From the NCBI RefSeq assembly GCF_011250645.1, contig NZ_JAANNO010000007.1, positions 1 through 34,638 of the forward strand: a stretch of DNA of 34,638 nt, in the 5' to 3' direction. Both the position numbers and the translations under genes were made by a program. Every line of letters begins with the position of its first letter. Position 1 is the stretch's first letter. Shown here one piece after another: positions 114 to 20,614 of this stretch. The notes under the pieces were generated by a model. It had not been told where the DNA came from, did not search any database, and worked only from the letters and a program-made list of their open reading frames with translations. The DNA is from Motilibacter aurantiacus (GTDB taxonomy: Bacteria > Actinomycetota > Actinomycetes > Motilibacterales > Motilibacteraceae).

Positions 114-2261
114 TCAGACCAGCAGCTCGCCGACGACGCGCGGCGCAAGCAGGGTCAGCTCGGACGTGACCGTGTCCGCCTCTGCGTCGGGGACGGCGTC
201 AGCCGCGGCGAGGAACAGCGGCAGCGCCCGGTCGTCCCGGAAGGACTCCAGCGCGACGGCGGCGGCCAGCACCCGCTCACGGGCCGGCCGGCCCGGGTCC
301 TCGGCGATGGCGAGCAGCGGGCAGCCGGCGGTGATCCCGAGCCCGCGGGCTCGCGCGGACCACTCCAACGCCCGCAGGACGGTACGCCGCCCCGCCACCT
401 GCAGGGCCGCGGCGAGCACGGCACGCGACTGCGGCCACACCGCGTACGCCCGCTCGAACAGCTCGTCGGCGTCCTCGTCGCGCAGCGACAGCGCCTGCCC
501 GAGCAGAGGCAGGACGTCGTCGGCGGCGACGAGCTCCAGGTAGCGGTCGATCGGCGTCCCGGCCTCCGCGAAGAGCCGCAGCAGGACGGGCAGCTTGATC
601 GCGACGGGCTCGCGGGCCGTGACCTCGAGCACGCGCTCGACGCCCCGCTGCACCCGTCCGGAGGCCAGGGCCGCGTCGACCTCCAGCCCCAGCCAGGAGT
701 CCCGGGTACGGCGGAGCCCGACCTCGTCCTCGACGACGTCCGGCATCGACGCCAGCATCTCGAGCGCGCGCTCGGCGTCGCCCTGCCGGAGCGTGATCTC
801 GGCCTCGTACGCCCTCACGGACAGCCCTGCGATGCTGCGCTGGCGCAGCCGCTCGATCCACACCCGGGCCGCGTCGTAGTCACGCCGTCCGATGGTGACC
901 ATCACGCCGACCAGGCACGCCTGGCGCTCGTTGACCGGGGTACCGCCGGTGGCGAGCATCCGCTCCGCCGCGTCCAGCGCGCCGTCCCCCTCGCCGGCCG
1001 AGCACAGTGAGCGGGCCAGGTTGGCCAGGGCCTCACCGGGGTCACCGGCCAGCGCCCCGTCCTCGACGGCGAGCCGGGCCAGGTCCGCGTTGCGCTTGTA
1101 CTTGTCCCGCTCGGTCATGCGGTTCGGCAGGTACCCGGAGTGGACGAGCCGCACCTCGCTGATGTCCTCCTCGAGGGGGACGTCGCCGTCGCGGCCCATG
1201 AGCTGCTCGTGGAGCCTCCCGGCCCACCAGCCCAGCTGCGTGCGCACGATCCGGCGGGACCGCATCTGGCTGCCGGCGCCCACTCCGACCACCTCGTTCT
1301 CCAGCCGGATCACGCACGACCCCACGTGGCCGGGGATGTCGCGCATCAGGCGCCGGAAGCCCTGCGGGCTCCCGCTGGCCACCTCGTCGGCGTCGACGAA
1401 GAAGGCCCACTGCCCCAGGCAGTGCAGCAGGGCCCGGTTCCTGGCGTCGGCGAAGTGGTCGTTCCAGTACCCCGGCACCACCCGGGCACCGGCGGCGCGC
1501 GCGATCTCCACGGTGCGGTCGGTGGAGCCGGTGTCGTAGACGACGACCTCGTCGCAGAACCCCTGCAGCGCGGAGATGCTCGCGGCGAGGACGTCCTCCT
1601 CGTCCTTGACGATCATGCAGCCCGAGACCAGGGGGCGCTGCGCCGGGCGCAGCGAGCACGTCCCGGCCGCGTCCCGGTGGGACCACCAGCTCTCCGCCGC
1701 CACGGCCAGGCGGCCGTCCTCGACGGCCGCCAGGCGGGCGCCGAGGCCGGCGCCGAGGTCGTCGACCCGCGCGAGGTCGGAGGCCCGCGCCGCGAGCACC
1801 AGGTCCGCGAGCTCCTCCGCGGCCCAGTGCTCGCCGCGCAGCTGCCGGGACTGCTCCCGAGCGAACGCCCGGAGGCTGCTGCGGCTCTGGACCGACGCGA
1901 CCGGCGGCACGAGCTGCTGGCGCCCGGCCGCGAGGTCGGTACGCGGGCCGACCGCGGCGACCCCGTCGACGAGCGCGGCGGCCAGCTGGTCCACCGCGTG
2001 CGGGGGCGCGATGCAGTCGCCGTCGACGAGCAGGACCACCTCGCCGCGCGCAGCGGCGAGGCCGAGCGCGCGCAGCTCGGCGAGCGAGGCGCCCGCCGGC
2101 GCCCGGACCGCCCGGGCACCGGCGAGCGGCCCGACCGGCGCGCCGGCGACCACGAGCACCTCGTCCTGCAGCCGCAGGGAGGGCTTCAGGGAGGACAGCA
2201 GCTCGGCAACCGGGCCGGCCGCCGTCACGACGACGGAGACGGGAGGGCGCTGGGCGCTCAT
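114..2261 (-). CDS. GT2 glycosyltransferase with two GT-A-like domains and a helical repeat tail
   Basis: A 715-residue glycosyltransferase, probably cytoplasmic, with no signal peptide or membrane segment. Residues 5-100 resemble a reduced GT2 domain (VSVVVTA start, LLVDGDC near 77-83). A second, clearer GT2 domain starts near residue 211 with SGCMIVKDEED, YDTGSTD near 242 and the metal-binding FVDADE near 288. From about residue 385 the protein is alanine- and leucine-rich and helical, TPR-like. SunS-type and spore-coat-type glycosyltransferases share the second-domain layout. The ATG overlaps the TGA of a 16-codon upstream ORF (ATGA). It closes a run with a GT80 sialyltransferase and a CDP-glycerol transferase-like gene, so it probably builds the same glycan. 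The acceptor is unknown; flagellin is my inference from the neighbouring flagellar genes. Confidence 0.85.
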   Translation of the reverse strand: MSAQRPPVSVVVTAAGPVAELLSSLKPSLRLQDEVLVVAGAPVGPLAGARAVRAPAGASLAELRALGLAAARGEVVLLVDGDCIAPPHAVDQLAAALVDGVAAVGPRTDLAAGRQQLVPPVASVQSRSSLRAFAREQSRQLRGEHWAAEELADLVLAARASDLARVDDLGAGLGARLAAVEDGRLAVAAESWWSHRDAAGTCSLRPAQRPLVSGCMIVKDEEDVLAASISALQGFCDEVVVYDTGSTDRTVEIARAAGARVVPGYWNDHFADARNRALLHCLGQWAFFVDADEVASGSPQGFRRLMRDIPGHVGSCVIRLENEVVGVGAGSQMRSRRIVRTQLGWWAGRLHEQLMGRDGDVPLEEDISEVRLVHSGYLPNRMTERDKYKRNADLARLAVEDGALAGDPGEALANLARSLCSAGEGDGALDAAERMLATGGTPVNERQACLVGVMVTIGRRDYDAARVWIERLRQRSIAGLSVRAYEAEITLRQGDAERALEMLASMPDVVEDEVGLRRTRDSWLGLEVDAALASGRVQRGVERVLEVTAREPVAIKLPVLLRLFAEAGTPIDRYLELVAADDVLPLLGQALSLRDEDADELFERAYAVWPQSRAVLAAALQVAGRRTVLRALEWSARARGLGITAGCPLLAIAEDPGRPARERVLAAAVALESFRDDRALPLFLAAADAVPDAEADTVTSELTLLAPRVVGELLV

Positions 2262-2308
2262 CGGCCGGCCACCTGCCGGCGGGACGGGGCGTACGGGGTG
2301 CGGCGCAT
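2258..2308 (-). CDS. 16-residue leader ORF upstream of the GT2 gene
   Basis: An ATG at 2308 has an ideal Shine-Dalgarno (GAGGAG at 2320-2315, 6-nt spacer) and opens a 16-codon frame encoding MRRTPYAPSRRQVAGR. Its TGA overlaps the ATG of the GT2 gene as ATGA. The GT2 start itself has only a modest AGGTGG upstream. The arrangement suggests that ribosomes load on this short ORF and pass to the GT2 gene by translational coupling. The peptide is very basic (5 Arg of 16). No function is known to me; it may matter only through its translation. Confidence 0.45.
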   Translation of the reverse strand: MRRTPYAPSRRQVAGR

Positions 2309-2361
2309 GGTCTTCTCCTCGACGCGTGCGGGCGAAGGCGGGTGGAGGGTCGTCGGACCCG

Positions 2362-3606
2362 TCAGGTGAGGGTCATCGGCACGAGCACCGGCACCACCTG
2401 ATGGGGTGACACCAGGCCGGACTCGAGCATGAGGTCCAGGAGCGGCGCGTCCGGGCCTCCGGAGACCGCGGTGCGGTCGGTGAGCAGGAACTGCAGGCGG
2501 TCGGCCGGGATCGTGAACTGCGCGGAGCTGACGACGCCTCCGTAGCGCCGCGGCAGCAGCCCGAGCACGGCGAAGAGCTCCAGCGGGGCGCGGGCCGGGA
2601 CGTGGACGACGTCGTCGCCGAGGGCCGCAGCGATCGCGGCGTGGTTGGCGAGGTTCGCCGGGTGCCCCTTGAACGCGAGCCGGGTGCCGGCGGGGATCGT
2701 GCCGTCGGCGCGCAGCGCGGCGATGGCCTCGATCTGGCTGGCGGCGAGCCGGGCGTCGAACTCGTCGTCCCACGCGCCGGTCGCCGTGAAGAGCAGGGCG
2801 CTGTCGTCCGCCGCGAGCTCGGCGAGGCCGGCGACCTGCTCGCCGTCCAGCCCGAAGAGGCCGAGGTAGTGCTCGACCTGCTGCGGCGACAGGTCCGGCA
2901 GCCCGTCGAAGCTCATGTCCGCGGCGTACGGCTCGAGGTACGCGTGCAGCCGGCGCCCGGGCTCGTCGCGCAGCAGGATGTCGCGCCGCAACAGGTGGTA
3001 GCGGGTCGGGAACAGGTGCTGCCAGGCGTAGCTCTGGGCGATGCCCCAGAGCAGGGGCTGGCGGGCGAGGACGGCCCGGCGCAGGTCGTTGGCGGCGGCC
3101 GCGACCTGCCGCTCCGGGTCGCGCTGCCGCTTCAGCACCTCGCGCTCGAGCAGGCCGATGTTGCCGTCGTCGTAGAGGTCGAGCGAGATGCGCTCGCGCG
3201 CGTCCGGCACGAGGAGGCACAGCTCGCGCAGCAGGGGGACCACGCTCTTGCCCGCGTGGTGCTGGTTCGCGTGGATCTCGATGCGCTCGAACCGGCGGGC
3301 CTGGACGAGCCGGCCGACCACGTCGACGAAGTCGCCGCTGACCGCAGCCGTCTGCGGGACGAAGTGCGCGTTGCGGCCCCCCATCTGCTCGGCGGTCAGC
3401 GGGAGCCGCAGCCAGGTGGCGACCTTGAACACGTCCTCCCGGTCGGCGCACGCGACGAAGTCGGCGACCTGGCGGAGCAGCGAGAGGCTGGTGGAGTCGA
3501 CGTAGAGCTTGAGCACCTCACCCTCGACCGGCCGGGCCGGCGTGGTCGCGCCACGTCCGCCGTAGGCCCGGCCGGTGGGCGGGGCCAGCACGCTGCCGGC
3601 GGTCAC
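2362..3606 (-). CDS. GT80-family sialyltransferase-like glycosyltransferase
   Basis: A 414-residue protein matching, from memory, the whole fold of Pasteurella PmST1 and Photobacterium GT80 sialyltransferases, which transfer sialic acid from CMP-Neu5Ac. The domain begins at VLKLYVDSTS (residue 31). Motifs appear in family order: YDDG at 145-148 (D147 matches the general base), WQHLFPTRYHLL near 195, TGAWDDE with W279, FKGHP at 312-316 (H315 matches the general acid), E343 in PLELFAVLGLLP, and GGVVSS with S360-S361, which bind the CMP phosphate. The GTG start overlaps the previous gene's TGA (GTGA), so translation is coupled; a GTG at residue 31 is an alternative start. Donor could be another CMP-nonulosonate. 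No signal peptide is seen. The fold call is firm; donor and acceptor are inferred. Confidence 0.88.
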   Translation of the reverse strand: MTAGSVLAPPTGRAYGGRGATTPARPVEGEVLKLYVDSTSLSLLRQVADFVACADREDVFKVATWLRLPLTAEQMGGRNAHFVPQTAAVSGDFVDVVGRLVQARRFERIEIHANQHHAGKSVVPLLRELCLLVPDARERISLDLYDDGNIGLLEREVLKRQRDPERQVAAAANDLRRAVLARQPLLWGIAQSYAWQHLFPTRYHLLRRDILLRDEPGRRLHAYLEPYAADMSFDGLPDLSPQQVEHYLGLFGLDGEQVAGLAELAADDSALLFTATGAWDDEFDARLAASQIEAIAALRADGTIPAGTRLAFKGHPANLANHAAIAAALGDDVVHVPARAPLELFAVLGLLPRRYGGVVSSAQFTIPADRLQFLLTDRTAVSGGPDAPLLDLMLESGLVSPHQVVPVLVPMTLT

Positions 3607-5333
3607 CGGTCGCCCCGGAGGCCCGCGGCCTGCAGCAGCCCGGCGCCGACGGCGTCGTCCTCGAGGAAGAGCTCGGCCCGCAGCGAGTCGACGATGTCCG
3701 CGACGATCCGCTCGCTGGCGCGCCCGTCGGCGAAGGGGAAGTGGCGGTGGACCGCCGCCGCGCGCTCGGCCTCCTGCGGGTCCTTGCCCCGGCGGACCAG
3801 CTCGAGGAACTCCTCCACGTCGGCCCAGGAACGTGCCTGGTACATCGCCTCGAAGTACGCGCCCTCGGCGTTGGTGCCCGGCCCGTCCTCCCGGCGCAGG
3901 TAGAGCAGCGGCTTGCCGGTGGGCATGAAGACCGTGGCGAGCGAGCTGAGGTCGCTCATCATGGCGTCGGCAGCCGCGAGCGCCTCGGTGTAGTCGGCGG
4001 TGAGGTCGAGCACGATGTGCTCGTTCTCGTCCGCAACGCGGCGCAGCGTCTGCTCCACCCGGGAGGGGCCGCCCTCGAGCAGGGCCAGGTCGGCGAAGAG
4101 CCGGAAGTGCGGCCGGATGATCAGCATGAGGTCCGACCGCTGCAGGAAGCGCTGCAGCATCGGCTGCAGGTAGAGGTGGAAGGTCGACCAGCCGCCCTCC
4201 TCCATGCGGAAGTGCGGGTTCCAGAGCACCACGCGGCGTCCCTTGGCGCGAGCGCGCAGCTCCCGGCCCCAGGACCGGGGGGTGGAGCGCAGGCTGACGT
4301 CCAGCTTGGGCGAGCCGAGCACTCGGACCGGGGCGTCCCCGGCGGCGCAGTGGGCGGCGTACAGCCTGGCCTGCTCCCGCGACGGCAGGTAGGCCCGCCA
4401 GGCGAAGCGCTGCAGCGGGAGGTCCCACAGCAGCTTGGTCATGAGCGCGCCGTCGATCGCGTTGTTGCCGTAGGGGACGGACACCAGGCGGACCCCCCGC
4501 TCCGCGAGCACGGTCGCGCTGAGCTCGGCGGGGCGGAACTCGTCGTAGGGGTTGTCCACCACGAGGACGTCGACGTCGTCGAGGAAGCTCGCGAGCCAGG
4601 AGCCGTCGCGCGGGTCGTAGCCCTGCTCCCGCAGGAACTGCGCGGTGCTGGCGCCGGTGCCGTCGGCGACGGTGTCGATCGCGGTCAGCGTGAAGTCGAG
4701 GTCGGGGTGGGCGGCCAGCTCGGCGCAGAGCGCGGAGACCGAGCTCCACGTCTGGCGCTGCTGGACGAGCAGCACGACGTGCGGCTTGCGGCGCCCGGCG
4801 GTCAGGTCGCGGGCGAGGAGCACGTCCCGGCGGCTGATCGCCGCCTCGACCCGGGCGCGGTCGCGCTGGGCCATGAGGACCATGAGGTGGCCGGCGTGGA
4901 CTGCGTCGGTCGCCGGTTCCGCGGCCTGCTCGGACGGCGCCTCCGCGGTCGCGTCGGTGGCGTCCCACAGCTCGCGCGCCAGCAGTGTCAGCAGCGCGAT
5001 GGAGCGGGCGTTCTCGGCCTCGTCACGGCCGGCGGGCACGCGGCGCAGCGCCTCGACGGCCTCTGCCTCCGCCTGCCCCACGAGCAGCACCTCGGGCAGG
5101 GCGCGGAGGTCGGCCACGGCTGCGGTGCAGATCTGCTGCACGGCCTCGGCGTGGGCCTGGGTGGGCTCGTCGACGCCCTGCAGCGTCAGGACGACCTCGA
5201 CCGGGTCGTTCGCGGTGAAGACCTGGACGGCCGCGGAGACGACGACCTGCACCTGCGGGAGGGCCAGGTCCTCGATCTCGACGACGACTGCGTGGCGGAG
5301 CGGGCTGGCCGCGTCGGCTGGGGTCACGTTCAC
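3603..5333 (-). CDS. CDP-glycerol glycerophosphotransferase-like protein
   Basis: About 576 residues. The C-terminal 380 residues resemble the TagB/TagF family (PF04464), which transfers polyol phosphates from CDP-polyols. Visible signs are VVLWNPHFRM, LMLIIRPHFRLF (the R-x-H site) and AAADAMMSDLSSLATVFMPTGKP (metal/phosphate loop D-x-S-S). The N-terminal 130-180 residues are not recognised and may bind the acceptor or partner enzymes. It lies 26 nt after a LicC-like nucleotidyltransferase that could supply its CDP-linked donor, and its stop overlaps the GT80 start. Two in-frame GTG starts exist (5333 and 5327). A FliA-like -10 ends at 5335, so if that promoter is real only GTG 5327 can be used, on a leaderless mRNA. 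Substrate is unknown. Confidence 0.8.
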   Translation of the reverse strand: MNVTPADAASPLRHAVVVEIEDLALPQVQVVVSAAVQVFTANDPVEVVLTLQGVDEPTQAHAEAVQQICTAAVADLRALPEVLLVGQAEAEAVEALRRVPAGRDEAENARSIALLTLLARELWDATDATAEAPSEQAAEPATDAVHAGHLMVLMAQRDRARVEAAISRRDVLLARDLTAGRRKPHVVLLVQQRQTWSSVSALCAELAAHPDLDFTLTAIDTVADGTGASTAQFLREQGYDPRDGSWLASFLDDVDVLVVDNPYDEFRPAELSATVLAERGVRLVSVPYGNNAIDGALMTKLLWDLPLQRFAWRAYLPSREQARLYAAHCAAGDAPVRVLGSPKLDVSLRSTPRSWGRELRARAKGRRVVLWNPHFRMEEGGWSTFHLYLQPMLQRFLQRSDLMLIIRPHFRLFADLALLEGGPSRVEQTLRRVADENEHIVLDLTADYTEALAAADAMMSDLSSLATVFMPTGKPLLYLRREDGPGTNAEGAYFEAMYQARSWADVEEFLELVRRGKDPQEAERAAAVHRHFPFADGRASERIVADIVDSLRAELFLEDDAVGAGLLQAAGLRGDR

Positions 5334-5334
5334 T

Positions 5335-5362
5335 GGATCGGCCCAGTGGCGGCGTGACCTTA
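5335..5362 (-). promoter_or_regulatory. Candidate FliA/WhiG-type promoter before the glycan-transferase genes
   Basis: On the minus strand TAAG (5362-5359), a 16-nt spacer and GCCGATCC (5342-5335) resemble the actinobacterial FliA/WhiG consensus TAAA-N15/16-GCCGATAA. It overlaps the TAA stop of the nucleotidyltransferase gene. A transcript starting about 7 nt beyond the -10 would begin at GTG 5327. GCCGAT occurs by chance in GC-rich DNA, so this rests on the paired -35 and the placement. Confidence 0.45.
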
Positions 5363-6115
5363 ACGGGTCGTCAAGACCGGCGTGCGCTCGGCCGACACGT
5401 ACGCGCTGGCGGCCTCGAGGTCCTGCGGGAAGTCGACCTCGACCGCGAAGTGGTCCCCGAGGTCGAGCCCGAGCCAGCGCTCGCCGCGGGTGATGCTCGC
5501 CTCGACAGCGGCCTCGAAGTAGTCCCGGTCGTCGGCCCGGCGCAGCTCGGCGACGAGCCGGGCGCGGGTGGCGGCGCTCACCAGGTTCACCCCGATGGCC
5601 TCGCCCTGGCCCCCGCGGACGGACTTGGACAGCTCGCGGACGCAGCCGCCGGCGTCGAGGACGTACTTGACCTCCTCGTCCGCCGTCCGGCCGGGCTTCA
5701 CCCCGATCAGGTTGGCCGTCGTGGACATGACGGCCGAGATCACCGTGTCGGCGAAGGAGGCGGAGAAGACGACGTCGCTGTTGAGCCACAGCGCGCCTCG
5801 CCCGTTGTCGGCGCCCGTGCTCTCCAGCCCGACGAGCAGGGACTTGGCGGTGTTGGTCTGGCCGTAGCGCTCGTTCTGGGCGAAGCTCGCCCACGGGAAG
5901 CGCTCGCGGAACTCCTCGTGCCGGTGCCCGACCACGAGGGTGAACGTGCAGCCCTGCTCGCGCAGCGGCTCGAGCAGGCGCAGCTGGCGGCCGAGGAGGG
6001 TCTCCCCGCCGGGCAGCGGGGTCAGCGGCTTGGGGGCCGAGCCGCCCAGCCGCGAGCCGAGGCCGGCGGCGAGGACGACCACGTCCAGGCCGGAAGGCGG
6101 GACGGCGGGAACCAT
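5360..6115 (-). CDS. LicC-like sugar/alcohol-phosphate nucleotidyltransferase
   Basis: A 251-residue cytoplasmic GT-A-fold nucleotidyltransferase. Residues 12-30 hold the nucleotide-binding VVLAAGLGSRLGG followed by PKPL; LNSDVVF near 101-107 gives the metal-binding Asp (D104); GEAIGVN sits near 161 and VEVDFPQDLEAA near 225. This layout fits CTP:phosphocholine cytidylyltransferase LicC and related NTP-transferases that make activated small-molecule phosphates. Next to a CDP-glycerol transferase-like gene, a CDP-linked product is the natural guess, but CMP-sugar or NDP-sugar synthesis is not excluded. ATG 6115 has GGAG 4 nt upstream. It stands 95 nt after the sigma-factor gene, on the same strand. 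Confidence 0.8.
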   Translation of the reverse strand: MVPAVPPSGLDVVVLAAGLGSRLGGSAPKPLTPLPGGETLLGRQLRLLEPLREQGCTFTLVVGHRHEEFRERFPWASFAQNERYGQTNTAKSLLVGLESTGADNGRGALWLNSDVVFSASFADTVISAVMSTTANLIGVKPGRTADEEVKYVLDAGGCVRELSKSVRGGQGEAIGVNLVSAATRARLVAELRRADDRDYFEAAVEASITRGERWLGLDLGDHFAVEVDFPQDLEAASAYVSAERTPVLTTR

Positions 6116-6210: not shown

Positions 6211-7113
6211 TCAGGCGACGTTGGCCGGCGCGTACGCCGCGGCGGCGTAGGCGGGCGTGCGGCCGGACAGCCGGGCCTTGAAGTCGCCGCTCGCGGCCAC
6301 CTCGGCGAAGTACGCCTCGCGCCGGCGGGCGGCGCAGCCACCGGGGCGGGCGGCGGGGGCCACCATCGAGGGCTCGACCTGGGAGTTGATGCCGTCCTTG
6401 AGCAGCGCGAGCGCCTCGGCGCGCATCTGGGAGACGCGGGACTCGCTGACGCCGAGCTCGGCCGCGATCTCCGCCATCGGCCGCTCCTCGAAGAAGTAGC
6501 GGACCACGACGGTGCGCAGCCGCTCCGGCAGCACGTCGACCGCGTCGTACAGGTAGCCGACCTTCTCCCGGTGCAGCAGCACCTCGTCCGGCGCCGGCTC
6601 GTGCACGGCGACGACGTCGTCGAGGCTGCCGGACTCACCGAAGCCCTGCAGGCTCAGCACGACCGCGCGCTGCACGTCGTCCTCGACCGAGCCGAGCTCC
6701 TGGACGGGGACGCCGAGGTGGGCGGCGATCTCGGCCTGGGTGGGCGTCCGGCCCAGCACCCGGGTCAGCTCCTCCTCGGCCGCGTCACGCTTGCGGGCGC
6801 GGGTGCGGACCGAGCGGCTGGCCCAGTCGTAGCTGCGCAGCTCGTCGATGAGGGCGCCCCGGATGCGGGTCGAGGCGAAGCGGGCGAACGGCACCCCGCG
6901 GTCGTCGTCGTACGAGCGGGCGGCCTGCGCGAGGGCGGCGAGCCCGGCGGAGGAGAGCTCGTCACGGCTCACGTGGGCCGGCAGCCGGCCGAGGAGCTCG
7001 CTGACGAGGTACCCGACGAGCGGCATGTGCTCGCGGCACAGCTGCTCCTCGGTGCGGATCGAGCGGAGGGCCGTGCCTGCCGAGGAGCGGGCGTCGTGGC
7101 GCGTAGCGGTCAT
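6211..7113 (-). CDS. fliA: FliA/WhiG-family flagellar RNA polymerase sigma factor
   Basis: A 300-residue sigma-70 of the FliA (sigma28) class, which directs transcription of late flagellar genes. Region 2 spans about 26-105, with the class-typical DDDRGVPFARFASTRIRGAL and LRSYDWASRSVR. Region 3 is about 107-155. Region 4 is about 185-240, with LPERLRTVVVRYFFEERP and the helix-turn-helix GVSESRVSQMRAEAL. Residues 241-300 form an extra alanine-rich tail with no known domain, beyond the usual end of the family. ATG 7113 begins just before region 2; longer reading upstream adds low-complexity sequence and no domain. It is divergent from flgN across 255 bp. In non-motile Streptomyces the same family is WhiG, but the flagellar neighbours favour a motility role. 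Confidence 0.92.
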   Translation of the reverse strand: MTATRHDARSSAGTALRSIRTEEQLCREHMPLVGYLVSELLGRLPAHVSRDELSSAGLAALAQAARSYDDDRGVPFARFASTRIRGALIDELRSYDWASRSVRTRARKRDAAEEELTRVLGRTPTQAEIAAHLGVPVQELGSVEDDVQRAVVLSLQGFGESGSLDDVVAVHEPAPDEVLLHREKVGYLYDAVDVLPERLRTVVVRYFFEERPMAEIAAELGVSESRVSQMRAEALALLKDGINSQVEPSMVAPAARPGGCAARRREAYFAEVAASGDFKARLSGRTPAYAAAAYAPANVA

Positions 7114-7307: not shown

Positions 7308-7368
7308 GGTACCCAGCACCAGTTGTCAGGGCCGGCCGGCCCGCATGGCCCGCGAGGCGGAGGACTAC

Positions 7369-7851
7369 ATGAGCTTGGCAGGGGTCTCGAGCACCCTCTG
7401 GCGCGAGCGCGAGCTTCTCGAGCTCCTGCTCTTCAAGCTGGAGGAGGAGCAGCTCGTCCTGGCCTCCGGCCGCACGCGGTGGCTCTCGCGGGCCACCAAG
7501 GAGGTCGAGATGGTGCTCGAGGAGGTACGCCGCGCCGAGCTCCTGCGCGCGGTCCAGGTCGACGCCGCCGGCGTCGAGCTGGGCCTGGGCTCCGGCCCGA
7601 GCCTGCGCGAGCTGGCCGAGGCGGCCGACGAGCCGTGGAAGACCCTGCTCCTCGAGCACCGCCAGGCGTTCCTGACCGCCACCGCCGAGATCCAGGCGAT
7701 GGCCGAGGCCAACCGCGACCTGCTCACGAGCGGGTTCCGGGCGGCGCGCGAGGCCCTGCTGTCACTCGGTGACGGGGCCGAGACGTACACCGCGAGCGGC
7801 GCCCCCGCAGCCGCCGGTCGCTTCAGTCGCCTCGTCGACGAGGCGATGTGA
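7369..7851 (+). CDS. flgN: FlgN-type chaperone for hook-filament junction proteins
   Basis: A 160-residue, almost wholly helical protein rich in Glu, Leu and Ala, typical of FlgN. FlgN binds FlgK and FlgL in the cytoplasm and delivers them to the flagellar export machine. Characteristic stretches are LWRERELLELLLFKLEEEQL at the start and a second long helix near 95-135. The family has little sequence signature, so the placement directly before flgK and flgL carries much of the call. ATG 7369 is chosen because GGAGG lies 5 nt upstream; an ATG at 7345 would put that site inside the gene. It is first in the plus-strand flagellar operon. Confidence 0.82.
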   Translation: MSLAGVSSTLWRERELLELLLFKLEEEQLVLASGRTRWLSRATKEVEMVLEEVRRAELLRAVQVDAAGVELGLGSGPSLRELAEAADEPWKTLLLEHRQAFLTATAEIQAMAEANRDLLTSGFRAAREALLSLGDGAETYTASGAPAAAGRFSRLVDEAM

Positions 7852-7918: not shown

Positions 7919-9319
7919 ATGAGCAGCACGTTCAGCGGTATCAACACCGCCTACTCGGCGCTGGTCGCGCAGCGCCGCGCCCTCGAGACGACCGGCCAGA
8001 ACGTCGCCAACGTCAACACCCCGGGCTACACCCGCCAGCGCGCGAACCTCGAGGCGCAGGGCGGCCCCGCCGTGCCGGCGATGTACTCGAAGTACGACGG
8101 CGCGGGCGACGGCGTCAAGGTCGTCGGCGTCGACCGCATCACCGACACGTTCCTGCAGGCCCGCGCCCAGAACGAGGCGGCCAAGCTCGCCGCGCAGCAG
8201 TCGGTCGCCACCTCGCTCTCGCGCATCGAGGACGTCTTCCCCGAGCCGTCGGACACGGCGCTCGGGTCGAACCTCGCCGACACGTGGAACGCGTGGGCGG
8301 ACGTCGCGAACAGCCCCGGCGACGAGGCCCCGCGCAGCGCGCTCCTGCAGCAGGCGCACACGCTGACCGGCAACATCAACGCCGCGTCGAAGAACCTGTC
8401 GGACCAGTGGGAGCAGCAGCGCCAGGAGCTGTCGGTCACGGTCGACGAGGTCAACGTGGCCGCGAAGGGGATCGCCGAGCTGAACCTCGCGATCCGCCGC
8501 GACACCCAGGCCGGCGTGCCGGCCAACGAGCTCAAGGACCGGCGCGACGCGCTCGTCGACAAGCTGGCGAGCCTGGTCGGCGCGACCGGACGGCAGGGCG
8601 AGGACGGTGTCGTCGACGTCTACCTCGGCGGCACCGCGATCGTCCGCGGCTCCGACGCCGACGCGCTGCGCCTCGACGGCCCGGCGAAGCTCGGTGACGT
8701 CACGGCCTCCAGCCAGCTGCGCATCGTCCGCGCGACCGACGGCTACCCCTCCTCGGTCAGCAGCGGCAAGGCGGCCGGCGCGCTGGAGACGCTCAACTCG
8801 ACCCTGCCGGGCTACTCGCAGAAGCTCGACGCCCTGGCGTCGGGCCTCGCCTCCTCGGTCAACGCGATCTGGAGCACGGGCTACGACCTCGACGGCAACC
8901 CGGCGGCCGGCAACTTCTTCGGCAGCTCGGACGGCAACCCGGTCAAGGGCTCGAACATCACCGTGCTCGTCACCGACCCGCGCAAGGTCGCGGCGTCGGG
9001 CGACTCGGCCACGCGCCTGGACAACGCGGTCGCCAACAGCATCGCGGCGCTCGCCGGCAAGGTCGACGGCCCCGACGGCGCCTACCGCGACCTGGTCGCG
9101 AACCTGGCCGTGGAGTCCCAGACCGCGCAGACCCGGCTCACGACGCAGACCTCGGTCGCGAACAAGGCGGCCGACTCCCTCGAGGCGGTCCGCGGGGTCG
9201 ACACCGACGAGGAGATGACGAACCTGCTCGCCTACCAGCGTGGCTACGAGGCGGCGGCGCGCGTCATGAACAGCATCAACTCCATGCTCGACACGCTGAT
9301 CAACATGGTTGGACGGTAA
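7919..9319 (+). CDS. flgK: Flagellar hook-associated protein 1
   Basis: A 466-residue HAP1, the junction protein between hook and filament, exported by the flagellar type III system. The N-terminus is diagnostic: FSGINTAYSALVAQRRALET then GQNVANVNTPGYTRQR. The C-terminus has the family coiled coil ending DEEMTNLLAYQRGYEAAARV and MNSINSMLDTLINMVGR, which packs with the N-terminal helix. It is shorter than the 547-residue E. coli protein, so the central exposed domain is reduced. It follows flgN by 67 nt and precedes flgL by 6 nt. Confidence 0.96.
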   Translation: MSSTFSGINTAYSALVAQRRALETTGQNVANVNTPGYTRQRANLEAQGGPAVPAMYSKYDGAGDGVKVVGVDRITDTFLQARAQNEAAKLAAQQSVATSLSRIEDVFPEPSDTALGSNLADTWNAWADVANSPGDEAPRSALLQQAHTLTGNINAASKNLSDQWEQQRQELSVTVDEVNVAAKGIAELNLAIRRDTQAGVPANELKDRRDALVDKLASLVGATGRQGEDGVVDVYLGGTAIVRGSDADALRLDGPAKLGDVTASSQLRIVRATDGYPSSVSSGKAAGALETLNSTLPGYSQKLDALASGLASSVNAIWSTGYDLDGNPAAGNFFGSSDGNPVKGSNITVLVTDPRKVAASGDSATRLDNAVANSIAALAGKVDGPDGAYRDLVANLAVESQTAQTRLTTQTSVANKAADSLEAVRGVDTDEEMTNLLAYQRGYEAAARVMNSINSMLDTLINMVGR

Positions 9320-9325
9320 CCGGCG

Positions 9326-10216
9326 ATGACTGGCATCTCCCGCGTCACGTATCACCAGCTCGGGATCTCGTCCCTGCGCGGCGTGCAGGGCAACCTCGAC
9401 CGCATCTCGAACCTGCAGACCCAGCTGTCCACGGGCCGCTCGGTGAACCGGCCCTCGGACTCCCCGTCGGGGACCTCGGCCGCGATGTCGTTCCGCTCGG
9501 ACATCAAGGCGAACACCCAGTACGCGCGCAACGCCAACGACGGCATCGCCTGGCTCGGGAACGCCGATCAGGCACTGCAGTCCTCGCTCTCCATCACCAA
9601 CCGGGTCCGGGACCTGGCCGTGCAGGCGGCGTCGACCGGCTCGCAGGGCCAGACGGCGCGCGACGCGATCGCCACGGAGGTCCGGCAGCTGCGCGAGTCG
9701 CTGATCGAGACCGCCAACACGACGTACATCGGCCGGCCGGTCTTCGGCGGCACGACGGCGGGCGCGAAGGCGTACGAGAAGAACGGCTCGTACGTCGGCG
9801 ACACCGGCCAGGTGCTGCGCACGGTGGCCAACGGCGTGCAGGTGCGGGTGGACGGCAGCGGCCCGGAGATCTTCGGCACGGGTGACGAGCAGCTGTTCAC
9901 GATCGTCAACGACATCGCGGACCACGCGTCCGGTGACCCGGCCGCGCTGCAGGACGACCTCACCCGGCTGGACAAGGCCCTGACCAACCTGCGCAAGGGC
10001 GCGGCGGACATCGGCGCGCGCTACAACCGCGTCGAGTCGCTGAAGCAGGGTGCGGACGACCGCAAGCTCACGCTCAACAAGGGGCTCAACGAGATCGAGA
10101 GCGTGGACATCGCCGAGGCGACGGTCCAGCTCCAGCTGCAGCAGGTCGCCTACCAGGCGGCCCTGGGCACGGCCAGCAAGGTCCTCCAGCTCTCGCTGAC
10201 GGACTTCCTGCGATGA
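9326..10216 (+). CDS. flgL: Flagellar hook-associated protein 3
   Basis: A 296-residue HAP3, which caps the hook-filament junction and adapts it to flagellin. The N-terminus (RVTYHQLGISSLRGVQGNLD, then LQTQLSTGRSVNRPSDSPSG) and the C-terminal helix (ESVDIAEATVQLQLQQVAYQ) are the flagellin-like D0/D1 segments. The ATG lies 6 nt after the flgK stop, and its own TGA overlaps the fliW ATG (ATGA), so flgK, flgL and fliW are one translation-coupled unit. It is close to the usual 300-residue length. Confidence 0.96.
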   Translation: MTGISRVTYHQLGISSLRGVQGNLDRISNLQTQLSTGRSVNRPSDSPSGTSAAMSFRSDIKANTQYARNANDGIAWLGNADQALQSSLSITNRVRDLAVQAASTGSQGQTARDAIATEVRQLRESLIETANTTYIGRPVFGGTTAGAKAYEKNGSYVGDTGQVLRTVANGVQVRVDGSGPEIFGTGDEQLFTIVNDIADHASGDPAALQDDLTRLDKALTNLRKGAADIGARYNRVESLKQGADDRKLTLNKGLNEIESVDIAEATVQLQLQQVAYQAALGTASKVLQLSLTDFLR

Positions 10217-10719
10217 CGACAGCGCTCTCCGCGCGAAAGGGCTCCGGCGTGGCAGACAGCACCCTCGAGATCGTCCGGACGGGCGTAGGGCACGATGGCC
10301 GCGTGGACGCCCAGGTGACCGCTACTTCGCCCGCGCAGCAGGAGCTGCCCTCGCTCGAGTTCCCGTCCGGGCTGCCCGGCTTCCCCGAGGCCCGGCACTT
10401 CGCGCTCGTACGCCTCGACGACGCCGGCACGGCGTACTCGCTGCGCTCCCTGGAGCACGAGGAGCTGCGCTTCGTCGTCATGCCGCCCGGGCTCTTCTTC
10501 CCGGACTACGCGCCGGAGATCGACGACGAGGCCGCGACCGAGCTCGGCCTCGATGCCGCGGAGGACGCCCTGGTGCTGCTCGTCGTCACCCCCGGCGAGA
10601 CGGTGGAGCAGGCGACCGTGAACCTCATGGCCCCGGTCGTCGTCAACCTGCGCAGCCACCGGGCGACGCAGGTCGTGCTCACCGGCAGCGACCTGCCGCT
10701 GCGCGCGCCGCTCGCCTGA
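10213..10719 (+). CDS. fliW: Flagellar assembly factor FliW
   Basis: Up to 168 residues. FliW binds free flagellin, or binds and inactivates CsrA, so that flagellin synthesis follows secretion. The FliW fold begins near residue 46: LEFPSGLPGFPEARHFALV, then FVVMPPGLFFPDYAPEID and ATVNLMAPVVVNLRS. The ATG overlaps the flgL stop, but about 40 residues precede the conserved domain. GTG codons at 10249 and 10303 are possible later starts, so the true N-terminus is uncertain. csrA follows after a hairpin, reproducing the fliW-csrA pairing known in Bacillus. Confidence 0.93.
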   Translation: MTTALSARKGSGVADSTLEIVRTGVGHDGRVDAQVTATSPAQQELPSLEFPSGLPGFPEARHFALVRLDDAGTAYSLRSLEHEELRFVVMPPGLFFPDYAPEIDDEAATELGLDAAEDALVLLVVTPGETVEQATVNLMAPVVVNLRSHRATQVVLTGSDLPLRAPLA

Positions 10720-10833: not shown

Positions 10834-11118
10834 GTGCTGGTGCTGAGCCGCCGTGCCGGTGAGAGCGTCGTCATCGGCCACGACGTCGTCGTCACCGTGC
10901 TCGAGGTGCGGGGCGACGTCGTCCGCGTGGGCATAGCCGCCCCGCGCAGCGTGCAGGTGCACCGCGAGGAGGTCTACCGCGAGCTGCGCGAGGAGAACCG
11001 CACCGCGGCGGCCGCCACCTCCGATGCGGCCGTGGCCGCGATCGCAGCGCGCATCGCCGCCCGCGGGCCGGCGGCCGACGCCCCCGCCACCGGGAACGCC
11101 GGCAACCCCACGGCCTGA
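10834..11118 (+). CDS. csrA: Carbon storage regulator CsrA
   Basis: A 94-residue CsrA, an RNA-binding dimer that represses translation of GGA-containing leaders, classically flagellin mRNA in FliW-containing bacteria. The start GTG gives the family's usual opening (V/M)LVLSRRAGESVVIG and has GAGGAG 6 nt upstream; an ATG 17 codons earlier is not needed. The beta strands end with VRVGIAAPRSVQVHREEVY, which contains the RNA-contact segment. The usual protein stops at 60-75 residues; here about 40 extra alanine- and proline-rich residues follow. The tail's role is unknown. Confidence 0.94.
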   Translation: MLVLSRRAGESVVIGHDVVVTVLEVRGDVVRVGIAAPRSVQVHREEVYRELREENRTAAAATSDAAVAAIAARIAARGPAADAPATGNAGNPTA

Positions 11119-12154: not shown

Positions 12155-15100
12155 TCAGGAGGCGGTCTCGTCGGCTTCCATCTCCTGGTAATCGGCGATC
12201 AGCGCTTCCGCGTCGCGCCGCAGCAGCTGCCGGACCATGAGGTCGCGCAGGTCGCCCTTGACCTGGTTGTTGACCCGGTCCGCGAACTGCTGGAGATGGC
12301 TGATCACCCGCTCCTCGCTGCCCATGTCGGCGGCGAGGACGGCCTTGACGAGCCGCTCACGCAGGTTGGCGGCCGTCTTCGCGCTGATCGTGCCGTCCTC
12401 GACGAACTGCCCGATGAGCGCGTCGATGTCGGCGAGCGACGTGGTCACCGTGAACGTCACCGTGTGGGCGGTGACGTTGCCGGCGTTGTCCGTCGACGTG
12501 ACGACGAGGGTGTGCTCCCCGAGCGCGAGCTCGTGGAAGGTGACCGTCGTCCCCGACGCGATGGCCTTGCCGTCGAGGGTGGCGGTCGTCGACGCCACAC
12601 CGGACGTCGCGTCGCTCGCCGTCCACGCCACGGTGGCGCTGGTGGAGTCGCCGTAGCCGGAGCCGTGGGCCACTCCGGTCACCGCGACGGCGGGCTTGGT
12701 GGCGTCCACGGTGACGGTGGTGGAGCCCACCGCGGAGACGTTGCCCGCCTGGTCCGTGGCGCGGTACTCCACCGTGTGCGTCCCGTCGGCGCCCAGCGCC
12801 ACCGGAGCCGAGTACGTCGACCACGCCGCCGCGCCCTGCATGCGGTACTGCACCGACGCGACGCCGGAGCCGCCCTCGTTGTCGGCGCCGGTGAGGGTCA
12901 CCGACACCGGGGAGGTGTACCAGCCGTTGGCCCCGTTCGGGGCGGCGGGCGACACCGCCGCGGTCACGGTGGGCGCGGTGGAGTCGGTGACCAGCCGGAA
13001 GAAGTCGAACGCCACGGTCACCGGGGTGACCTGCTGGGGGCCGATGGCCATGAGGCCGATCTTGTCCAGCGTCCCGTCGTTCGTCACCGGCTGGCCCAGG
13101 GCGGTCCAGGTCAGGCCACCGGTCGTGCTGACCCAGCCCTGGTAGCTGCTGCCCGTCTTCGTCAGGCGCAGGTGGAACCAGCCCGACTCCGTCGACTCGG
13201 GGACGTCGACGCTCCGGTTGCCGCCGTTGCCGAACTGCGCGTTGCGCTCGGACACCAGCTCGGCCCCGAGGTTGGTCGCGGCGGTGGAGGCGTTGTTCGC
13301 GACGAGGTCGAGCTTGACGTAGTTGTCGTCGTCGCCGTACGCGAGCAGGCCGGCCAGCTGCCACTGGTGGGCCATCGTCGCGCGCAGCCGCGTCTCGATG
13401 GTCCAGTTGCCCTGGGGGGCCTTCTGCAGGATGACGTTGCGCGGGCCCTCGTTGGCGGCGCCGTTGATGTCGCCCGGCTGGGTGACGATCCGCAGCTCGC
13501 CGCCGGCGACGCTGAGGTTGCGGGCGTCGCCGCGGACGGAGGCGTTCCAGCGGCAGCCGTCGAGCGCGCTGCCGGTGAACTCGTCGGACGGCACGACCGG
13601 CCCGGTGGCGTCCGAGGACAGCCGGAACCAGTCGAACAGCGCCGTCGAGTTGGGCGTGCCGGTGTCGCCGGCAGCCATCACGCCGAGGGTGGCGTTCGCC
13701 TTGACCGGTGCGGCGCCGCTGAGCGCCGTCCAGGTCGCGCCGTCGACGGAGTACGAAGCGGTGATCTGCGAACCTGCCTTCTTCAGTCGCAGATGGACGG
13801 TGTCACCCGCGGAGATGGCGACGTTGTTCGCGTGCCACGTGCGGGTGCCGCCGGTCTCCGTCTGGAACTCCAGGAAGCGGCCGCCTGAGCCGTTGCGCGT
13901 GTAGGCCAGCTTCACGTACTCGTTGTCCGAGGCGTGGAGCATGAGCCCGGCGTGCTGCCACTCCCTGTTGTGCGCCAGCGTCAGGCGGGTGGTCGCCTCC
14001 CAGTCGCCTGCCGGGGCCGGCTGGCCCACGTAGCTGATCGGGCCGGTCGACGCCTCGTTGATGTCGCCCTGGGTCACGGGAAGCCGGAGCGAGCCGTCCG
14101 CCACCGTGACCGGGAAGCCGGTCGCCTGCCGGACGGTCGGCCACCGGGCCGCGTCCAGCGTGCTGCCGACGAACTCGTCCGAGCCCGGCGTCACGCAGCT
14201 CGGCAGCGGCGTCGGGCCCGGGTCGGGCTGCGGCGTGCCGTCGACGAGCGTGAAGCCGCTGAACTCGACCTCGCTCTTCGCCGACGCGTGGTGTGCGGTG
14301 ACGAAGAGGCCGATGTCCTGCACGGCCGCGGCCCCCGCCAGCTGCACAGGGCCGCCGATCGCCGTGAACGTCGTGCCGTCCTTGCTCCAGTAGGCCTGGT
14401 AGTTGGCACCGTCACGGGTCAGCCGCACCCACACGGGGTAGCTCGTCGAGCTCGCGCTCGAGGACGCGTCCAGCTGGCCGTTGCCGTCGGTGTCGCGCAG
14501 CCACTCGAAGCCGCCGCTGGGCCGCATGCCCAGCGCCGCGTACCCGGGCGAGGAGCCCGGTGCCGCGATGTTGTTGCGCACGATGATGCCGGCCTTGGCA
14601 CTGTTGTTCGAGTTGCCCTGGCGCTCGATCTTGACGGTGGCGGTCCACTTGTCGTCGGCCCCGGCGGGGCGGTAGGCCGCACCGTACTGGTCGACGGCCT
14701 GCCACATGTTGGTGCCGCCGGAGTTGATGATCCACCGGTCGCCGTCCGGCCGGTCGAAGGTGGCCCCGGCGTTCGTGAACGTCTCCCAGCCGGCGAACAG
14801 GTCCCCGACCTGCGCGATGACGATGCGCGACGTCGTGCTGACGCCCTTGTCGTTCGTCGCCACCGCGGTGAGCCGGTAGCGGGCCTCCTTCGGGACGTTC
14901 CACGTCACGGCGTACGGGGCGGTGGTGTCCGACCCGATCGACTGGCCGTCGACGAAGAACTCCACCTTGGTGATGGTGTTCTCGGCGTCGGTCGCGTCGG
15001 CGGTGACCTGGACCGGGCCGACCTCGAGCTCGGCTCCGGCGGCCGGGGCCGTCACGGAGACGACCGGCTTGGTGGTGGCCGAGACGCCCTTGCCGACAGC

Positions 15101-18100
15101 CTCGATGAAGTTGAGGCGCCGCTCGCCCGCGCCCGGGAAGACGACGTAGAGGGAGAACGACTGACCCGGGTCGGTGACCTGGACCGGGACGTCGACGTAG
15201 CTCGTCAGGCCACCGGTCGCGGGGACGCTCGCCCTGCCGAGGACGGGGCCGTCCGCCGCACCGCGACGCAGCTCGACCGTGCCGGCCGTGGGCGCCGCGA
15301 CGCGCAGGAGCAGCGAGTCCACGCCACGCAGGCTCACCGGGTCGTACGCCGCCCACGCGCCGTTCTGGCCGCTGATCGCCGAGCCGTGGCCCTCCACGTC
15401 CCGGGCGTCCGCGGTGGTGATCCCCGTCGCCGAGGCCGAGGAGTAGAACTCGGCCTCGCGCTGCTTCGGGAACAGCAGCGTCGTCGCCGAGCCGGTCAGT
15501 GCCGGCACACCGCCCGCGCCGCCCTTGTCGGTGTAGCGGGCGTCGAGGACGTAGAAGACGTTCATCCCCTCGCCGTGACCGCCGCCGAGGCTGGTGGTGG
15601 CGGTGCCCTTGCGCCCGGAGAGCGGCTCGGACGGGTGGGCGTGCTCGTCGTGGCCGAGAGCCGGCTGGATCACGATGTCCGCGTCGGCGATCTGCGTGTC
15701 CTCGGCGTCGGTGACCTCGACGTCCCAGCTGACCTGGTCGCCGAAGTCGAAGAACCCTCCGTTCGGCGGCAGGTTGAACGTCACCTGCGGCCGGGTGTTG
15801 CCGACCGTGATCGGGACGGTCGTCGTGCCGTCCTTGCCCTCGGGGTCGGTCACCGTGAGCCGGGCGTCGTAGACGCCGTTCGCGGTGTACGTGTGGGTGG
15901 CGGTCGGCGTGGTGGCGTCCGTGGTGCCGTTTCCGTCGAAGTCCCACGCGTACGTCAGCGCCGCGCCCTCGGGGTCCTTGCTCGCGGAGCCGTCGAACTG
16001 CACCACGAGCGGGGCGTGCCCGGAGTCCGGCGTCGCGGCCGCCTCGGCGACCGGGGAGCGCGAGCCCGAGATGTAGTCGATGCGGTGCAGTCCGGAGTTG
16101 GGGTTGTCACGGCCGTAGCCGCCGCCCCAGTCGAGGACGTAGAGGGAGCCGTCGGGGCCGAACTTCGAGTCGATCGGCGCCAGGAACTGCTCGTTCGGCA
16201 GGAACGGGTTGGCCTTCTCGATGCCCGTCTGGCCGTCCTTGAGGACGAGCGAGAACATGCGGTTGCGCGCCCAGTCGTAGAAGAAGGGCTTGCCCTCGTA
16301 GTACTGGGGGAACTTCGTGTCGGAGTCCAGCTCCGGGTCGTACTGGTAGAACGGGCCGCCCATCGGGGCGAGGCCGCCGCCCTGGTTGATCCCGCCCTGC
16401 ACGGACGAGCGCTGGTAGCCGTACCACATGGTCGCGGGCTTGGCCGCCGGCAGCTCGGTGAGACCGGTGTTCTTGACGGAGTCGTTGATCGGGGCGTTGC
16501 AGTTGAAGAACCCGCCGACCGTCACCGGGCTCGTGGTGTAGTCGACGTCGCGGAAGGGCTCGTTGTTGCCCATGCACAGCGGCCACCCGTAGAAGCCGGG
16601 CTCCTTGACCAGGTTGTACTCGGCGATGCCCGCAGGCCCCCGGTTGGCGAGGTTGTCGGTGTTGTTGTCCGGCGAGTAGTCCGCGACGCCGAGGGCGCCC
16701 GTCTTCTGGTCGATGGAGAACCGGAACGGGTTGCGGAAGCCCATCGCGTAGATCTCGGGCTTCGTCTTCGGCGTCCCCGGGGCGAACATGTTGCCCTGCG
16801 GGATGGAGTACGTGCCGTCGGGCTCGGGCTTGATGCGGAGCACCTTGCCGCGCAGGTCGTTGGTGTTCGCCGACGTGGCGCGCGCGTCGTGGAAGGTGTT
16901 CGGCCGCTCGGACAGCGGGGCGTACCCGCCGGAGGGCTCGGAGTGCGGGTTCACGTCGTCGCCGACGCCCAGGTAGAGGTTGCCCTGCGCGTCGAAGTCG
17001 AGCCCGCCGCCGGTGTGCCCCGGCTCGTCGGGCAGGCGGCTCGCCGGGACCGTCAGCAGCACCTTCTCCGTCGCCCGGTCGATCTGCGAGTTCGGGCCGA
17101 CGGTGAAGCGGGAGAGCCGGCTGAACCAGTTCGCGGGGTTGGTGTCGTCCGAGGACGCCGGGGCGTAGTAGACGTACAGGTAGCCGTTCTCGGCGAACTT
17201 CGGGTCCAGCGCGATGCCGAGCAGCCCGTCCTCACCGCCGGAGTAGACGGGGATCGTCACCGCCGTGGAGGTGGTGCGGCTCGTGGGGTTGTAGACGCGG
17301 ATCTGCCCGCGGACGAGCTCGGTGAAGAACACCCGTCCGTCGGGGGCCACGTCCATCGCGAACGGCGCGCTGGTGTTCTCGTCCAGCGCGACCTTCTCGA
17401 ACTCGCTCCAGTCGGTGCCGCCGCAGTCGCCCTCTTCGAGGCCTGCGGCCCACTTCACGCCGCCGAGGATGTGCCGGACCAGCGCCGGCTCCTGGTAGTG
17501 CGCACCGAAGTGGCCCATGCCGGTCATCCACGCGCGGCCGCCGTCGTACGGGCGGCACCAGGAGATCGGGTGGTCGTACCCCATGCGGTTGCTGCCGGGC
17601 TCGTACGTCGTCTCGTCCATGGTGGCGAGCACGTGGGCCTCGCCGCGCACGTTGGCCGAGTAGTTGTACCACTCGTCGGCGCGGTTCCAGCGCTGCGGAA
17701 GGTGCTTGGTGGAGGGGTGCACCTGGTCCTCGACCCGCACCGTCCCCGGCAGGCCCGGGCTGTTCCCGGTCGCCGCGTGACCGGGCATCAGCGCCCCGAT
17801 CATGGTGTCCCACCAGGCGTAGTTGCCGCGCATGTCGGTGGCGTTGTGGATGGCGACGATGCCGCCGCCGGCCCGCTGGTACCGCTCCAGGGCCGCCTTC
17901 TGCTCCGCGTTCCAGGGGTCACCCGACGTCTGGAACATCACGAGGGCGTCGTACTTCGCGAGCTCGGCGTCGTTGAAGACGGTGGAGTCCTCGGTGTGCA
18001 CCGAGTCGATCCCCTCGGCCTGGAAGGCCGCCTGGAGCACGGGCGTGCCCTGGACGATGGCCTCCGTGTGCCGGAACTGGGTCGTCTTGGTGAAGATGAG

Positions 18101-20505: not shown

Positions 20506-20560
20506 GGCGTCGCCCTCCTAGATAGAGACGTCGTTGTCGTGGAATCGGGCAGGGAAGCCC

Positions 20561-20585
20561 CAGCCGGCGGCCTGGCGGCCGCTGG
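20561..20585 (-). repeat. Imperfect hairpin between permease and binding-protein genes
   Basis: CAGC/GCTG-type arms with one bulge in the 109-nt gap. It could protect or process the mRNA so that the binding protein is made in excess, as is common for ABC importers. Pairing is imperfect. Confidence 0.25.
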
Positions 20586-20614
20586 ACGGGAGGTGTGGGG
20601 GTGTCCGACGGGGC

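Follow-up and report, generated by a model that had tools for sequence, protein, structure and literature searches.

The window analysed here, a stretch of 34,638 nucleotides, comes from the soil actinobacterium Motilibacter aurantiacus (contig NZ_JAANNO010000007.1). Close to its start a group of glycosyltransferase-type genes adjoins flagellar genes. On the minus strand the order runs from a FliA-type sigma factor through a MobA-like nucleotidyltransferase, a TagB-like protein and a GT80 protein to a GmaR-like GT2 protein, after which comes the contig start. The genes, and the motifs of the GT80 protein referred to below, are the following:

114..2261, minus strand: GT2 protein of 715 aa with a GmaR/SunS-like catalytic domain at residues about 205-400 (profile and PDB match)
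2362..3606, minus strand: GT80 (PF11477) glycosyltransferase gene, 414 codons from GTG 3606 (profile and fold)
2524..2529, minus strand: serine pair S360-S361 of the GT80 protein, aligned with S449/S450 of 2z4t
2659..2673, minus strand: FKGHP motif, residues 312-316; H315 aligns with H405 of 2z4t
3163..3174, minus strand: YDDG motif, residues 145-148 of the 414-aa form; the second D is D147
3603..5333, minus strand: TagB/TagF-like protein (PF04464 Glyphos_transf), immediately upstream of the GT80 gene, whose start it overlaps
5360..6115, minus strand: MobA-like nucleotidyltransferase (PF12804; profile match)
6211..7113, minus strand: FliA/WhiG-type sigma factor (TIGR02479 185.8 bits, just under the 189.6 cut-off)
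7345..7851, plus strand: FlgN chaperone (profile search)
7919..9319, plus strand: FlgK hook-associated protein (profile search)
9326..10216, plus strand: FlgL-like protein (over-cut-off Flagellin_N match; FlgL name by position)
10249..10719, plus strand: FliW (profile search)
10834..11118, plus strand: CsrA-like protein (name by sequence and position; homologues lie beside FliW in the relatives G001 and G002)

The first-pass annotation of this DNA had placed a GT80 sialyltransferase-like enzyme in a flagellar locus and gave no strand; the frame lies on the minus strand, and its position between fliA and the GmaR-like gene, with FlgN, FlgK, FlgL-like and FliW genes nearby, bears out the location. 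The GTG start at 3606 overlaps the TGA stop of the upstream TagB-like gene, as GTGA, so that translation of the GT80 gene is probably coupled; an alternative internal GTG at 3516 would give 384 aa. Codon use looks native, as had been noted, with GC at third positions of 0.982 and a codon-adaptation-like score of 0.878, where the other 22 scored gene calls of the window range over 0.598-0.913.

Among solved structures the GT2 neighbour is closest to GmaR of Listeria (4.1e-21), though over residues 205-395 only, the middle of the 715-aa protein; SunS-type glycosyltransferases come next. By sequence, and by synteny in relatives, it is the likely flagellin O-glycosyltransferase. The TagB-like protein is a possible phospho-polyol transferase or a rival nonulosonate transferase, and its predicted model is poor (two sequences, pLDDT 43.9, pTM 0.34). 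The MobA-like protein weakly resembles inositol-1-phosphate cytidylyltransferase, over residues 11-51 only. The contig begins at window position 1, 113 bases beyond the GmaR-like gene, and the window's assembly contains no flagellin gene, the FlgL-like protein being its only over-cut-off Flagellin_N match. A search with a simple FliA-promoter pattern over the window, L026 (plus strand), L034 and L035 (plus strand) gave one match, at window 28822, far from the cassette, and none close to it.

Family membership, fold and catalytic residues

The window protein matches PF11477 (PM0188) at 103.7 bits (E=1.4e-29, cut-off 25), with residues 32-375 aligned to positions 1-357 of the 390-position profile; none of the NCBIfam profiles matched it. 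A phmmer search of PDB sequences returned 15 GT80 sequences (E 1.7e-28 to 2e-16), led by 2z4t (1.7e-28) and including the PmST1 entry 2ex0 (8.6e-25), and then one unrelated row at 0.24. An AlphaFold2 model, built on an alignment of five sequences (the window protein, its M. deserti ortholog, the homologues from Photobacterium damselae and a viral contig, and a truncated one from Shewanella), reached pLDDT 83.3 and pTM 0.82, with low-confidence segments at 248-250, 350-356 and 379-384. Foldseek placed GT80 chains in its top 24 rows (E 2.3e-23 to 1.5e-19, query-normalised TM 0.69-0.77; next row 5.7e-6). The top 21 rows of VIA-align were likewise GT80 entries (Z 28.6-33.3, rmsd 3.8-4.9, 353-370 residues), the next being an unrelated glycosyltransferase at Z 11.0. 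The predicted structure has a two-Rossmann GT-B core that superposes on the GT80 structures, and both the family and the fold originally proposed are upheld.

The landmarks that had been recognised by eye (YDDG, W279, FKGHP, E343 and SS) are all present in the 414-aa numbering and align with residues of 2z4t. D147 falls on D232, the catalytic base of this Photobacterium enzyme, and W279 and E343 fall on W365 and E432. Asp232 and His405 are named as catalytic in the Photobacterium enzyme, and the catalytic set of PM0188 is given as Asp141, His311, Glu338, Ser355 and Ser356 (PMC4202792); by way of 2z4t this set is matched by D147, H315, E343, S360 and S361. The base, the HP histidine, the ribose glutamate, the tryptophan and the first serine are conserved; in the M. 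deserti ortholog a threonine replaces the second serine. When PmST1 closes, its S143 forms a hydrogen bond to the phosphate of CMP (PMC5517516). The equivalent position in the window protein is N149, one of 12 sites where it alone differs from M. deserti and two gamma enzymes.

PmST1 (PM0188, Pasteurella multocida) and the Photobacterium GT80s (2ex0, 2z4t, 4r83) share with the window protein the Pfam family, the GT-B fold over the whole length, the catalytic base, the HP histidine, the glutamate, the tryptophan and the first serine. The window protein is only about 21-26% identical to these enzymes, is actinobacterial and lies in a flagellar cassette; it also lacks the signal and the N-terminal extension that the homologues from Photobacterium, Shewanella and the viral contig have. 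Hydropathy and inspection by eye show no evident signal peptide in the window or M. deserti GT80, whereas three homologues (P. damselae, S. sairae and viral contig L016) start with a lipoprotein-like signal by the same means. The hydropathy peak of the first 70 residues is 0.94 in the window and 1.18 in M. deserti, against 1.28-1.66 in those three. The three other cassette proteins reach 1.49-1.65, so that hydropathy is weak evidence for a cytoplasmic GT80.

The M. deserti ortholog is 70% identical to the window protein, with dN 0.23 and dS 0.49 (NG86) and dN/dS about 0.47, a ratio to be read with third positions near saturation in GC; that this ortholog exists speaks against a chance reading frame. 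Of 393 genomes sampled from the class, which span 137 genera, two have a PF11477 match over cut-off, and both belong to the window's genus; in a phylum sample of 396 genomes, overlapping the former, the window's own genome is the only one. The TagB-like gene is distributed likewise, in 2 of the 393, with at most three candidates per genome scored. A scan of 84,980 species with two short patterns matched 45 stretches, and confirmation followed for three of them, from Motilibacter deserti, Photobacterium damselae and Shewanella sairae; with its strict patterns, the scan fails to pick up known carriers of GT80, Pasteurella among them. A PF11477 fragment in genome G423 (67 positions, sub-cut-off, two stops) was not counted as GT80. 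The plasmid and phage collections gave no tblastn match to GT80 at 0.01, and a plasmid or phage copy was set aside.

Separately, the IMG/VR contig L016 carries a GT80 homologue with a lipoprotein-like signal at 2192-3745 and, by eye, a phage-type integrase-like ORF at 1-1029, and contig L017 carries another homologue; GT80 genes may travel on proviruses.

Nonulosonate pathways of the two Motilibacter species

The window genome contains one PF02348 cytidylyltransferase over cut-off and one strong NeuB-type synthase, both in a single pse-type cluster that lies on the window's contig about 156 kb from the GT80 gene. The search for CMP-nonulosonate genes that the first-pass annotation had suggested therefore found a cytidylyltransferase and a synthase in the same genome. 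That annotation had taken the lack of a GT80 profile hit, a fold without the GT-B core or a genome without a CMP-sugar synthetase as evidence against itself; with the PF11477 match, the GT-B model and the CMP-nonulosonate genes present, none of these results occurred.

Each of the six Pse steps (PseB, C, H, G, I and F) has a candidate in this one cluster, and PseB (495 bits; cut-off 408) and PseI (350; 340) alone among them are over cut-off. Also over cut-off are a pseudaminic-acid-associated methylase (252 bits; 112) and the amidotransferase proteins WbuX (318; 203) and HisH (200.5; 105.4). PseC (394 bits; 423.5), PseG (125; 154), PseH (47; 93) and a WbuZ-like protein (249; 300) are under their cut-offs, and the PseF/KdsB-like protein has weak matches of 41.5 and 45.4 bits. 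NnaB outscores PseI on the synthase (380 vs 350 bits) but stays below its own cut-off of 400. We read this pathway as one that would make pseudaminic acid (Pse) with an amidino group, perhaps methylated. The cluster surroundings form a polysaccharide locus with a flippase, WecG/TagA, GT2 and GT4 genes and, by eye, rml- and gmd-like genes, and for this reason the Pse may go elsewhere than to flagellin. The Pse-type cluster itself (G000:C7:159661-168481), with its amidotransferase trio (WbuX, HisH and WbuZ-like) and pseudaminic methylase, is an observation in its own right in an actinobacterium.

Motilibacter deserti has one NeuB-type match at 1e-10, 43% identical. Its cluster includes LegB (433 bits, under 475), LegC (380, under 420), NnaB (351, under 400) and NeuC/NnaA (256, over 236), as well as a cytidylyltransferase-NeuD fusion and a CBS-nucleotidyltransferase, and we read its pathway as probably legionaminic (Leg). 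GT80 and a NeuB-type synthase are both present in two of the five genomes of the family and both missing from the other three (G001, G002 and G004; NeuB at 1e-10), while FlgK occurs in all five; over five genomes the co-occurrence is suggestive only.

The donor of the GT80 enzyme is probably not sialic acid itself, the pathway appearing pseudaminic-type here and legionaminic-type in the sister species. Of the sialyl transfer originally proposed, a nonulosonate pathway stands and sialic acid as the donor probably does not. This also separates the window protein from PmST1 and the Photobacterium enzymes: its genome would make Pse, and that of its sister Leg, but not evidently Neu5Ac. Two further matches in the window genome were rejected: a second PF03102 match (C4, 30.3 bits, cut-off 22.1) reads by eye as DAHP-synthase-like, and a second PF02348 match (C5, 15.3 bits, under cut-off) as GlmU-like. 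The window genome has no match at E <=0.1 to PF01973, the family of Maf (the model matches 7 of 14 control genomes, none of them known as a Maf carrier), or to PF07388, the family of polysialyltransferase GT38 (6 of 14 control genomes); transferases of both types were set aside.

Pseudaminic acid has the L-glycero-L-manno configuration and legionaminic acid the D-glycero-D-galacto configuration, like Neu5Ac. Pasteurella and Photobacterium sialyltransferases are reported to accept CMP-Leg5Ac7Ac (PMC6388019). No report of CMP-Pse acceptance by a GT80 enzyme was found, and the one paper found that mentions both GT80 and pseudaminic acid concerns legionaminic acid in B. subtilis.

Synteny in M. 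deserti and flagellate relatives

In M. deserti the TagB-like, GT80 and GmaR-like genes lie together on a 6,049-base contig that ends 154 bases beyond the GmaR-like gene. The fliA gene of this species is on another contig and is followed by an ORF stub unlike the window's nucleotidyltransferase, so the link between GT80 and fliA is seen in the window's species only. The TagB-like gene of M. deserti has a divergent glycerol-1-phosphate-dehydrogenase-like gene beside it (L026:2-565), at the place of the MobA-like nucleotidyltransferase in the window. Between the two species the cassette proteins (GT80 70% identical, GmaR-like 73%, TagB-like 79%) diverge more than the flagellar proteins (FliA 96%, FlgN 98%, FlgK 91%, FliW 88%, FlgL-like 87%).

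The relatives G001 and G002 have GmaR-like homologues that are 40-42% identical. In G001 the gene is the immediate neighbour of a flagellin gene; in G002 five flagellin-like genes in tandem come right after it, and FliD and FliS lie farther on. Because the GmaR-like gene adjoins flagellin genes in these two flagellate relatives, the window genes resemble a cassette for flagellin glycosylation. Between this gene and fliA, G001 and G002 have genes that match none of the window proteins, other glycosyltransferases among them; the G004 contig breaks off before a GmaR-like gene is reached. As the window assembly has no flagellin gene, it is from the relatives that we infer flagellin beside the cassette. 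Tandem flagellin copies that break the assembly could explain both the contig ends after the GmaR-like gene and the missing flagellin. The tandem genes of G002, each about 270 aa, occupy L035:10838-15833 between the GmaR-like gene and fliD, and one of them was tested by Pfam.

Proposed function and rival readings

The reading that we favour, with modest confidence, is that the window protein acts in the cytoplasm as an inverting nonulosonosyltransferase of family GT80 and caps an O-glycan of flagellin, with Pse as donor here and Leg in M. deserti. We infer the donor and the acceptor. The GmaR-like GT2 protein would add a first sugar, of HexNAc type, to Ser/Thr of flagellin in the cytoplasm. 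D147 of the GT80 enzyme would then deprotonate a hydroxyl of this sugar for attack on the CMP-nonulosonate at C2, the donor phosphate being held by H315 and the two serines. The donor would be CMP-pseudaminic acid, probably as an amidino and methyl derivative, in the window's species and CMP-legionaminic acid in M. deserti. The products of the TagB-like and nucleotidyltransferase genes might add a further (phospho-)group before the modified flagellin is exported. Aeromonas flagellin is glycosylated with Pse in the cytoplasm, before export (PMC4065374), and action of a cytoplasmic GT80 on flagellin fits this precedent.

By synteny, the flagellum is favoured over the wall as target. An undescribed nonulosonic-acid glycan on flagellum or wall had been the initial suggestion, of which the flagellar part is strengthened; the claim of novelty does not hold for walls, the wall of Streptomyces coelicolor carrying a Kdn teichulosonic acid (PMC7831098). 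A literature search on Actinobacteria, in titles and abstract beginnings, found no actinobacterial flagellum reported to carry a nonulosonate, and no title found for Motilibacter mentions flagellar glycosylation.

The pse cluster lies within a polysaccharide locus about 156 kb from the GT80 gene, and it is on this account that wall or exopolysaccharide, with an accidental position in the flagellar locus, has to be weighed as a destination. Kdn wall polymers are known in actinobacteria (PMC7831098), and the GT80-fliA link is seen in the window's species only. We nevertheless consider such a destination unlikely: GT80 and the GmaR-like gene are neighbours in the assemblies of both Motilibacter species, the relatives have flagellin beside the GmaR-like gene and other glycosyltransferase genes between it and fliA, and no glycosyltransferase was seen (by eye, first residues) among the gene calls in 35 kb at the M. 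deserti Leg cluster. More improbable again is a reading in which the nonulosonate is transferred by the neighbouring TagB-like protein (3603-5333), and GT80 performs another step or uses a minor donor. The TagB-like protein is a rival because TagB-domain proteins are implicated in transfer of Pse/Leg derivatives in Tannerella forsythia, where they are named as candidates (PMC7439481) and where knock-outs of such candidates lost the nonulosonate (PMC6388019); its gene, as noted, shares the distribution of GT80. Its only PDB match, however, is the polyol-phosphate polymerase TarL (E 0.0015), and the MobA-like gene beside it in the window and the glycerol-1-phosphate-dehydrogenase-like gene in M. 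deserti fit a CDP-polyol donor. Moreover, the TagB-domain protein SpsB is dispensable for Leg transfer in B. subtilis (PMC7439481), and GT80 is an established CMP-sialic acid family (PMC4202792).

That same literature, which lists GT80 enzymes with a CMP-sialic acid donor (PMC4202792), would suit an enzyme whose donor is genuine CMP-Neu5Ac, CMP-Kdn or a different compound that the cell makes or scavenges by another route. The single over-cut-off PF02348 protein and the single strong NeuB match are both in the pse cluster, and with no second of either in the genome a true sialic-acid donor was set aside as very improbable. Least probable of all is a relic gene or a non-catalytic GT80-like protein, to which N149, the S-to-T change in M. 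deserti and the low-confidence model segments might point: the frame is intact in two species, the catalytic residues are kept and dN/dS is about 0.47.

Known and candidate nonulosonate transferases offer partial parallels to the proposed flagellin-capping GT80. For Maf the acceptor is Ser/Thr itself, not a sugar as in the present proposal. Maf1 of Aeromonas has the same proposed job, the transfer of a nonulosonate onto flagellin in the cytoplasm before export (PMC4065374), but Maf belongs to a family unrelated to GT80 and the window genome has no PF01973 protein. GtfS and TFUB4_00887 of Tannerella forsythia are likewise close homologues (81% identical) that serve a Pse derivative or a Leg derivative according to strain (PMC6388019). 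They are, however, TagB-domain proteins and not GT80 (PMC7439481), and act on an S-layer protein O-glycan rather than flagellin, without cross-complementation (PMC6388019). KpsS1 of Acinetobacter baumannii is also a pseudaminic acid transferase, but a retaining one of another family, GT118 (PMC12887879), whereas GT80 is inverting (PMC4202792).

The window protein is a GT80 member by profile, fold and motifs, and a variant, unmet in the literature searched, by host phylum, genomic setting and probable donor. More tentatively, and with doubt outweighing belief, the Motilibacter GT80s may form a natural donor-switch pair, in which the window ortholog would use CMP-Pse as an inverting pseudaminyltransferase and the M. 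deserti ortholog CMP-Leg, and which would place a nonulosonate on an actinobacterial flagellum. Such a Pse/Leg ortholog pair would make donor specificity testable by residue swaps. GT80 enzymes, with which marine and animal-associated bacteria attach sialic acid, serve in the making of sialosides and are of gammaproteobacterial origin in the literature examined; the donors and the role of the family would be widened by a divergent branch in actinobacteria that is linked to flagellin. Few Pse/Leg transferases are proven, and the papers examined name Maf1 (a candidate), the Tannerella pair and KpsS1.

Farther along the window, a predicted protein of 2004 aa with a secretion-like start is encoded at 12155-18169 on the minus strand, and after it comes what reads by eye as a sugar ABC transporter cluster (19273-24275).
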